Positions 2,743-6,593 of a DNA stretch of 64,000 nucleotides are shown piece by piece. A model generated the notes under the pieces. That model was not told where the DNA came from, did not search any database, and saw only the letters and a list, made by a program, of their open reading frames with translations. The number at the start of each line of letters is the position of its first letter. Position 1 is the first letter of the stretch. The DNA lies in the NCBI GenBank assembly GCA_025934645.1, contig JAICWY010000009.1, positions 1-64,000 of the forward strand. The letters are read 5' to 3'. The DNA is from Vulcanimicrobiia bacterium. GTDB lineage: Bacteria; Vulcanimicrobiota; Vulcanimicrobiia; Vulcanimicrobiales; Vulcanimicrobiaceae. The position numbers were made by a program, and so were the translations under genes.

Positions 2743-2805
2743 TTGAATCTCCTGTATCCTCCGGGGCTTTCCTTCGCCTAGAACGTACCCATCGCCCCTT
2801 GGGTT

Positions 2806-3172
2806 GCGCGGAGTACGCCTGTAAGCCGGATTCTGTACCGCGGCATAACGCCGCGGCGACGGCCATCTCTCTGGGACGCGCGTTGCCGCGCGCCTCGATG
2901 CGACTTGGCTCGTGCGGACGGGCCGTCCGTTTTTATCGAGCGCGTCTTGCTTCAGGTGGGGTTTACCCGAGCGCGCGTCTCCGCGCGGCTCCGGGAGCTC
3001 TTACCTCCCGATTTCACCCTTGCCGAGCTGAGAATGAATCTCAGCTCGGCGGTATGTTTCTGTGGCACTTTCCTTCGGGTCGCCCCGACAGGACGTTATC
3101 CTGCACCTTGCCCTGTGAAGCCCGGACTTTCCTCACCGCAATGCGGCGCGGCCGTCCGGCGTACTCCGCGAG
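2806..3172 (-). ncRNA. rnpB: RNase P RNA (bacterial type A-like)
   Basis: Minus strand contains GAGGAAAGTCCGGGC near the 5' end and ACAGAATCCGGCTTA near the 3' end; P1 arms CGGAGTACGCC / GGCGTACTCCG at about 3158-3170 and 2808-2819. Confidence 0.93.
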
Positions 3173-3188
3173 GCGCAGTATAGCATGT

Positions 3189-4064
3189 TTAGCCGTTCTT
3201 ATCGAATGCGCCGATGAAGAACGCCTTCGTGCTCGCATTGACGCCGGCGGGAAGCGCCGTAACAGGTGAGGTGGATGCGGCCGGCCCGTCAACCAAATAC
3301 AGTGAAAGATTTCCCGTATCACAGGGCAGCGCGTTGCTGCTGCACTGCGTGGAAAATTGACTGGGCGTACCGGTCATGCCGCTCGCGGGACTCACTGCGT
3401 AGAATGCGATCGGCGCGTTGAGCGCGGTGCTTGGCAAACCTTGCGGTGTCGTTTCCGCGCTTAAGGCGACGGGCTGTCCGAGCGGATTGCTCGCCGCGGT
3501 GTTGTTATTGAAATATCCGAACTGAATCGATCCCGGATTGGTGGATTGCACGAACGGTGCGGCGTAATGGAAATTCACCGCCGCTCCGCCGCCCGGCGTG
3601 TTGAACGGCTGTTCTGCCGTCGTGAGCAGTTGCAGTGTCGGCGTACTGCCGTAGCTGGGGTGCAATTCGCCTGCGAGTTCCAAACTGTAACGGAAGCCGC
3701 CGTTAACGGCCAATGCCGCGCTCGGAATCGCAATCTGATTGCCGTTCGCGTCGCGCAGTACGATAGCGTGGTTTCCCGCATTCAAATTGACCGCGTACGT
3801 CGTCGCTTGACCGTACGCAACGGTGCAACTCGAGCCGGTAGATCCGCTGCTGCAAAATTGCTGCTGATTGTCGATGAAGATTTGAACCGGACCCGCATCG
3901 GGAGACCCGTTCACGAAGCGGACTTGCGCGCTGTTTCCGCCCGGACCGAAGCTGCTGATGGGCCCTAGAACGCCGCCGCTGCCGCCGCCGCAAGCGGTGA
4001 GCGCGAGTGCTGCAAGACCCGCCAGTGCCGGCGCAACCGAGCGGGCGCGGAGAGAGAAGTGCAT
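3189..4064 (-). CDS. Lipoprotein with DUF4397-like domain
   Basis: MHFSLRARSVAPALAGLAALALTACGGGSGG lipobox; AQVRFVNGSPDAGPVQIFIDNQQQF repeat-type motif. Confidence 0.7.
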   Translation of the reverse strand: MHFSLRARSVAPALAGLAALALTACGGGSGGVLGPISSFGPGGNSAQVRFVNGSPDAGPVQIFIDNQQQFCSSGSTGSSCTVAYGQATTYAVNLNAGNHAIVLRDANGNQIAIPSAALAVNGGFRYSLELAGELHPSYGSTPTLQLLTTAEQPFNTPGGGAAVNFHYAAPFVQSTNPGSIQFGYFNNNTAASNPLGQPVALSAETTPQGLPSTALNAPIAFYAVSPASGMTGTPSQFSTQCSSNALPCDTGNLSLYLVDGPAASTSPVTALPAGVNASTKAFFIGAFDKNG

Positions 4065-5480: not shown

Positions 5481-5501
5481 GGCCCCGGTGTTACCGGGGC
5501 C
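5481..5501 (-). terminator. Intrinsic terminator after the small helical ORF
   Basis: GGCCCCGG-TAACA-CCGGGGCC then ATGTTTTC on minus strand, immediately after the stop codon of 5506..5718. Confidence 0.7.
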
Positions 5502-5505
5502 GCAT

Positions 5506-5718
5506 CTAAATCATCGCGATGTATTTTTTGAGCGCTTCGTCGTCAGCCTTGAGTTGCGCGAGCATCATGTCGCGCAGCACGTTCGCCTCGCGCTGCAACT
5601 CCGCTTGCGTTTGCATTCGCTCGTCGAACTGCGCCTGCTGCGCGGCCACCTCGTCGCTCGCCGGTTTCGCCGCGGCGCGCGCCGTAGCGCGCACCGCCGT
5701 TCTGCTGCGATCGATCAT
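5506..5718 (-). CDS. Small helical protein, 70 aa, paralogous to the C-terminal tail of the upstream ORF
   Basis: FDERMQTQAELQREANVLRDMMLAQLKADDEALKKYIAMI; start overlaps the upstream stop (ATGA). Confidence 0.7.
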   Translation of the reverse strand: MIDRSRTAVRATARAAAKPASDEVAAQQAQFDERMQTQAELQREANVLRDMMLAQLKADDEALKKYIAMI

Positions 5719-6593
5719 TCGGTGATGGTCTGGATGAATTTCTTGGTGATGGTGTCGTCGGCTTTACGCTGCTGCATCTGCACGTCCCGTAAGGTGTTCA
5801 CTTGGCGCATTTGCTCCGAGCGCTCGTCCATCATCTGGTCGAAAGCCTCCGACTGCATTTGCATCTGCTCCTGATGCCGCATCTGCTCGGCGTACATGGA
5901 AAGCTGGAACGCCTCGTCGGCCGCATTGAGCCCGCCCATCGCGGCGTTCCCCATATTGCCCGCGACGTTGCCCGCGCCGCCGCCGCTGAACGCGCTGATG
6001 GCACCCACACCGGCGGCCACGTAAGGATTGCCGGTTTCCACCAGCGTGGTAAGCCCGGTGGTCAGGCCGCCCAAGAGATTCATGCTTACTCCTTTATTAT
6101 CGTAGAATGACGGCGAGCCGCCGCCGAGGCCCGCATAATGACGGAGAACCGAATCGGCATAGCCCAGCCGCGCGCCGCCGCCCCAAGCCGTGACGGTGCC
6201 GCGAGCGTGCGGGTCGCCCGCGTTATAGGCGCAGAGCGCGGCCCGGGTGTCGCCGTACCGGCGCAGAAGGCCGGCCAGCAAGCCGGCTGCGTAATCCGCG
6301 TTAGCCCCGGGGTCCATCGCGGCCGCGCTGCGGGCAAAGCCGTGATAGCGATCGTCGATCTGGAAGAGGCCGCGCCCGTGGCCGCCGTCGCCGACGATAT
6401 TGCGGCCCGCGTTGCTTGCCGGCCCGCCCGTCTCTTGGGCCGCCACGGCAGCCAGCAGGCGCGGGTTGAGCCCGTGGCGCGCCGCGGCACCGGCGATTTG
6501 GGAGGCATAGGCCACCCCGTGCGACGCCAGGTCGCGTGCGGCGGCAGAGACACTTGAAATGCTCGTCATGGTGCCTATCAATCCCGCCGACAT
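5715..6593 (-). CDS. Lytic transglycosylase-like protein with C-terminal hydrophobic/helical extension
   Basis: YASQIAGAAARHGLNPRLLAAVAAQETGG...GDGGHGRGLFQIDDRYHGF...ALCAYNAGDP: SLT-type lysozyme-fold motifs. Confidence 0.75.
   Translation of the reverse strand: MSAGLIGTMTSISSVSAAARDLASHGVAYASQIAGAAARHGLNPRLLAAVAAQETGGPASNAGRNIVGDGGHGRGLFQIDDRYHGFARSAAAMDPGANADYAAGLLAGLLRRYGDTRAALCAYNAGDPHARGTVTAWGGGARLGYADSVLRHYAGLGGGSPSFYDNKGVSMNLLGGLTTGLTTLVETGNPYVAAGVGAISAFSGGGAGNVAGNMGNAAMGGLNAADEAFQLSMYAEQMRHQEQMQMQSEAFDQMMDERSEQMRQVNTLRDVQMQQRKADDTITKKFIQTITE

Follow-up and report, generated by a model that had tools for sequence, protein, structure and literature searches.

Flagellar muramidases are exported through the flagellar export apparatus, and paralogous helical ends packing in series are the norm among flagellar axial proteins as well as SctF/SctI. 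The systems closest to the locus described here are the flagellum (axial proteins FliE and FlgB/C/F/G/E, with FlgJ as rod cap and muramidase), the injectisome and the needleless Myxococcus T3SS*, whose T3SS-type export apparatus has neither flagellin nor needle (PMC12075869, PMC3459982). The rod genes flgC and fliE are flagellum-specific markers in Abby and Rocha (PMC3459982), and the Myxo systems are without FlgBCDEK, FliE and FliG (PMC3459982). Within a 64,000-nucleotide stretch of DNA (the window, meaning the whole stretch that was analysed), we studied a locus encoding a lytic transglycosylase (SLT) and two small proteins, B and C, which we compare with a flagellum-like gene cluster (FLS) encoded elsewhere on the chromosome. 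Like the flagellum, the locus and FLS together would combine paralogous helical-ended proteins with an exported muramidase, and FLS carries FlgC, FliE, an FlgE/F-like protein, FliF, FliH, FliI, FliM/N, FliPQR and FlhA/B. Unlike in the flagellum, family f3 and several f1 genomes are without flagellin, the FliG of FLS is a middle domain fused to FliF, and no flagellar family matched B or C. Like the injectisome, the locus pairs a transglycosylase with two small helical proteins whose C-terminal ends are conserved, and its SLT is weakly similar to IagB (E 8.8e-6), whereas FLS FlhA scores as flagellar, flgC and fliE are present, and B and C found no match among the SctF/SctI needle and rod families or solved chains. 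FLS resembles the Myxococcus T3SS* in its flagellin-free export apparatus and differs from it in having FlgC, FliE and the FlgE/F-like protein and in coming with SLT-B-C. We found no description of such an FLS/SLT-B-C system in Eremiobacterota in the literature.

Gene layout and the related tails of B and C

On the minus strand of the window, upstream of tRNA-Ile and divergent from yceD-rpmF-fabH, a 292-aa ORF (6593-5715) is followed by a 70-aa ORF (5718-5506), both lying where a sequence-only reading of the region had placed them and coupled, as it had noted, by an ATGA overlap at 5715-5718. That reading took the longer ORF for a single lytic transglycosylase with a tail, which needs correction: nearly all f1 relatives encode SLT and B in separate genes, frequently with an overlap or a gap of a few bases. 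As judged from these gene boundaries, the 292-aa ORF unites in one reading frame two genes that most relatives keep apart; it is a local fusion and not an ancestral protein, and the tail belongs to gene B. The same in-frame join in G110 is real, and a third one, in G104, was rejected as evidence of fusion on account of an unread base at the junction. The transglycosylase part (6084..6593, minus strand), a separate gene in most relatives, holds the Pfam SLT match (PF01464, at 6207-6497; 34.5 bits against a cut-off of 21.3, E 1.7e-8, and 36.1 bits in another search) and an AAQETGG catalytic-type motif, in agreement with the peptidoglycan-cleaving neighbour that had been proposed. Inside the joined ORF, the ribosome-binding site of gene B, AAAGGAG (6089..6095, minus strand), precedes the B start; the window and nearly all of the 18 loci compared have a purine-rich site at this place. 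Gene B (5715..6083, minus strand, ATG at 6083) encodes 122 aa with a Gly/Ala-rich, variable N-terminal half and a long C-terminal helix, and gene C (5506..5718, minus strand) 70 aa with a variable N-terminus and a tail module. Since SLT and B are separate in most relatives, the unit to be explained is SLT plus B plus C, and since some B-C pairs (G005, G028, G022 and family f2) are without a recognisable adjoining SLT, B-C forms its core. The terminator claimed downstream of C is represented by a terminator-like hairpin of nine pairs followed by ATGTTTT (5481..5501, minus strand; pattern scan), whose role as a terminator is suggestive only, two hairpins of this type occurring in the region against 1.2 expected.

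The 40-aa tails of B and C align without gaps at 18/40 identities, exactly as the sequence-only reading had reported. Both tails are charged helices, and a likeness produced by generic coiled-coil composition alone would be conceivable, but 18/40 was reached by none of 200,000 tail shuffles, the maxima being 14 with composition kept and 15 with the hydrophobic/polar pattern kept. Both tail families conserve the same residues in register, namely F1, E10, R13, E14, K27, D29/D30, I37 and I40, and hhalign of the B family (40 members) against the C family (31 members) gave a probability of 99.1 and E 7.8e-19, with 36% identity over 53 columns. The compositional explanation is thus refuted and has next to no chance of being right; as judged from these alignments the tails of B and C are homologous and make up a new family pair. 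In addition, B finds C in its own genome at E 1.7e-5 in a protein search, and mean tail identity amounts to 16.3/40 for B-C within a genome, 24.4 for B-B and 19.2 for C-C. The likeness links B with C and does not involve the SLT domain. The tail module of B (5724..5843, minus strand; F..M.DE.SE.MRE.NTLRD..M.QRKAD..I.KKFI..I) was defined by column conservation over 40 genomes, that of C (5509..5628, minus strand; FD....R.E..RE.N.LRD....Q.K.DDE..KK[WY]I..I) by hhalign against B together with column conservation. AlphaFold2 predicts C as a single helix with pLDDT of ~98 over the last 40 residues and B with a long helix at 40-121, with pLDDT of ~75 there in a low-confidence model (whole-model mean 65), for which Foldseek returned one meaningless PDB match (E 8.1). 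The earlier reading could not name a family for the tails, and neither could we: searches of B and C against Pfam, NCBIfam, PHROGs and PDB sequences gave no convincing known family.

Elsewhere in the window, positions 2806-3167 (minus strand) correspond to RNase P RNA, class A, and a conserved overlapping "ORF" at 2799-3269 was rejected as a spurious misreading of this RNA.

Distribution of the cassette and the flagellin-free cluster FLS

B is present in 97 of 117 genomes of one Eremiobacterota class (profile E 3.6e-51), and the profile search did not find it in any of 32 genomes taken as a sample of the remaining phylum. C is confined to the order of the window, where it adjoins B in families f1 and f2, so that orthologues retaining both copies, which had been called for, do exist. 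In the sister family f3, one B-like gene stands without a C. With this single copy, a tandem duplication on the f1+f2 stem, in line with the tandem helical module proposed earlier, would be the simplest history, but the same pattern would result if f3 had lost C. The cassette is flanked by the fab operon in f1 (often) and by prfA/prmC/rpmE and pyrG in f3, and because all these neighbours are housekeeping genes, the gene neighbourhood is uninformative as a functional clue. In G012, a second near-identical C preceded by a B-tail fragment was found ~1.4 kb downstream of the first C (L029:8927-9218).

Secretion genes elsewhere in the genome had been suggested as something to look for, and a second flagellum-derived export cluster, FLS, was found. 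A search for FliP turned up a second type beside the first in many genomes, and f3 has the second alone. In G000 (contig 151, L095:2958-19842) the FLS cluster encodes FlgC, FliE, FliF fused to a FliG middle domain (26.8 bits against a cut-off of 25, with no other FliG part), FliH, FliI, an SLT, an aspartyl-protease-like protein, an FlgE/F-like and a FliM-like protein, FliN, FliP, FliQ, FliR, FlhB and FlhA, and SecD-SecF directly follow FLS FlhA in f1 and f3. FlgC and FliE scored above the Pfam cut-off, and FlgB was assigned by position only, without a Pfam match. Since FLS FlhA scores 625 bits as flagellar against 484 as SctV and rod genes are present, FLS is flagellar and not injectisome-like, and the profile matches of a flagellar-type FlhA, FliP, FlgC and FliE identify it as a flagellum-derived export apparatus. 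Two other assignments were rejected, those of a canonical motile flagellum, there being no Flagellin_N match where FLS occurs alone (the FLS-only f3 genomes and G008), and of a non-flagellar T3SS, which is recognised by the absence of flgB/flgC/fliE (PMC3459982), FlgC and FliE being present here. FLS FlhA was found in most genomes of the class, and FLS is nearly universal there, beside any true flagellum. None of the FLS clusters examined contained SLT-B-C. As to other genes of the cluster, the aspartyl-protease-like protein (547 aa, L095:13731-15374) is absent from genus g36 and some other genomes, and a metF-like gene lies between FLS fliP and fliQ (L095:9799-10692) and also adjoins FLS genes in G061, G075 and G012.

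Integrity of the cassette in genomes with damaged FLS

As B and FLS are each present almost throughout the class and B survives in some genomes without FLS, presence and absence say little, and gene integrity was examined instead. In G061, FLS is deleted from FlgC through mid-FliP and carries a stop in FlhA, and the cassette has lost the last residues (the tail) of B and all of C; in its relative G077 (68% complete) FLS was not found, and B and C are broken in the same way. No FLS FlhA, FliF or FliP was found in G103, in which the B tail is replaced and C lost. In G075, FLS carries frameshifts in FliF, FlgE and FlhB, the SLT is cut at residue 112, B is gone and an inverted C relic (KTEDEITKKWISLV) remains, the fab operon staying open. 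G097 and G025, which belong to the same genus, likewise yielded no FLS FlhA, FliF or FliP and retain intact B and C, G097 with a nonsense mutation in SLT and G025 with Leu98Pro at a nearly invariant position of B. Intact cassettes and FLS were seen in close relatives of the same genera (G012, G066, G100, G102), which makes the B/C losses separate.

Among 55 genomes in which FLS FlhA is full-length and the locus is assembled, B and C are intact in all 55 and broken in none (hand tally, G061 and G075 set aside), whereas B/C breakage accompanies FLS damage in three of the four lineages with FLS deleted or frameshifted and an assembled locus. The association of FLS with B/C integrity gave a Fisher P of 2.9e-5 when genomes are counted and of 1.2e-4 when events are counted, values from a hand tally that ignores phylogeny, and the FLS lesions of G061 and G075 were sought because their cassettes were already known to be broken. 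FLS frameshifts occurred in none of 25 control FLS clusters, some of them only partly covered. In FLS-positive genomes without detected B, the locus lies at a contig end or is unassembled. G098, G004 and G064, in which the contig ends before the cassette, and G049 (B damaged, FliP not found), in which FLS is split between contigs, were left out as evidence. Loss of B/C tracks FLS loss, with moderate support, and the destruction of B/C in most FLS-less genomes means that the pair probably works with FLS, though encoded elsewhere on the chromosome; the link to an envelope-spanning machine that the sequence-only reading had drawn thereby gains support from the joint decay with a flagellum-like cluster. 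Against the link speaks one control, G099, in which FLS FliR has an internal stop (L196:5305-6222) and the cassette is intact, possibly reflecting early decay or an assembly error.

Proposed role and alternative explanations

From the homology, conservation, helical prediction, common class-level distribution and joint decay, we infer an export route, an axial or tip role and a membrane contact: SLT-B-C may be a dispersed cassette of the flagellin-free, flagellum-derived exporter FLS, which would export B and C as helical axial or tip proteins. We put our confidence in this at about one half, because B and C persist in G025 and G097, which lack FLS. SLT, B and C would leave through the FLS channel, like flagellar rod-cap and muramidase proteins; simple hydropathy gave no evident Sec-type signal in the SLT N-termini viewed, in the SLT of the FLS cluster, in B or in C, which makes FLS export the natural route. 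The transglycosylase would open the peptidoglycan, the common C-terminal helix of the paralogues B and C would pack against like helices, and the two proteins would add in series at the far end of FLS as a rod, needle or tip that is either periplasmic or external. The Gly/Ala-rich half of B would possibly lie at or in a membrane. For B and C themselves we hypothesise a structural role as axial or tip proteins; they look like an axial-type pair in design and not in sequence. A more tentative proposal, which we consider possible and yet doubtful, is that B and C follow one another as axial or tip subunits in a flagellum that has no flagellin. They would then form a filament or translocation device that has gone unrecognised, with short single-helix paralogues taking the place of hook and flagellin in an export machine found across this class of Eremiobacterota.

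SLT-B-C might instead be an envelope or cell-wall module independent of FLS, its joint loss reflecting general gene decay in a few lineages. The retention of B and C in G025 and G097, the constant location of the cassette away from FLS, often by the fab operon, and the near-universality of B and FLS, which makes their common distribution say little, all fit this explanation, but breakage of B/C coincides with that of FLS in three separate lineages and is absent from the 55 FLS-positive genomes, and the fab genes near the G075 cassette stay open; we regard it as rather improbable. The pair could also be unexported cytoplasmic partners of FLS, acting on the transglycosylase or some other substrate as its chaperone, export gate or regulator. 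A small, helical, charged protein encoded right after its putative substrate is a usual arrangement for chaperones, and C is without a hydrophobic stretch by hydropathy, but the N-terminal half of B is partly hydrophobic as well as Gly/Ala-rich, which is not chaperone-like, and no chaperone family matched B or C, which leaves this explanation unlikely.

Least convincing of the functional alternatives is a domesticated phage ejection module, with a virion transglycosylase and pilot or internal virion proteins. The SLT matches a phage transglycosylase family at E 3.3e-8 and B weakly hits T7 gp14 (E 0.011; 16 bits, below the curated cut-off of 27 bits), as do two of the 40 B family members at E<0.1 (best 0.0084). 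However, such hits are scattered over unrelated families and mostly fall below curated cut-offs, conservation of the cassette is vertical and syntenic across the class, and no phage structural gene occurs among its annotated neighbours, so that we consider this origin very improbable.

If the FLS reading is true, a second flagellum-type exporter, without flagellin or a complete FliG, persists in one class of a phylum that has received little study, and its missing outer parts come from SLT-B-C. This would also bear on the path from flagella to secretion machines, a question for which injectisomes and the Myxococcus system have so far supplied most of the arguments. G008, which has no flagellin, carries an FLS cluster and an intact SLT-B-C cassette; this genome is probably that of Vulcanimicrobium alpinus, for which no flagellin and no flagella were reported (PMC9758169), and in that case the idea would be testable in a cultured, non-flagellated organism.
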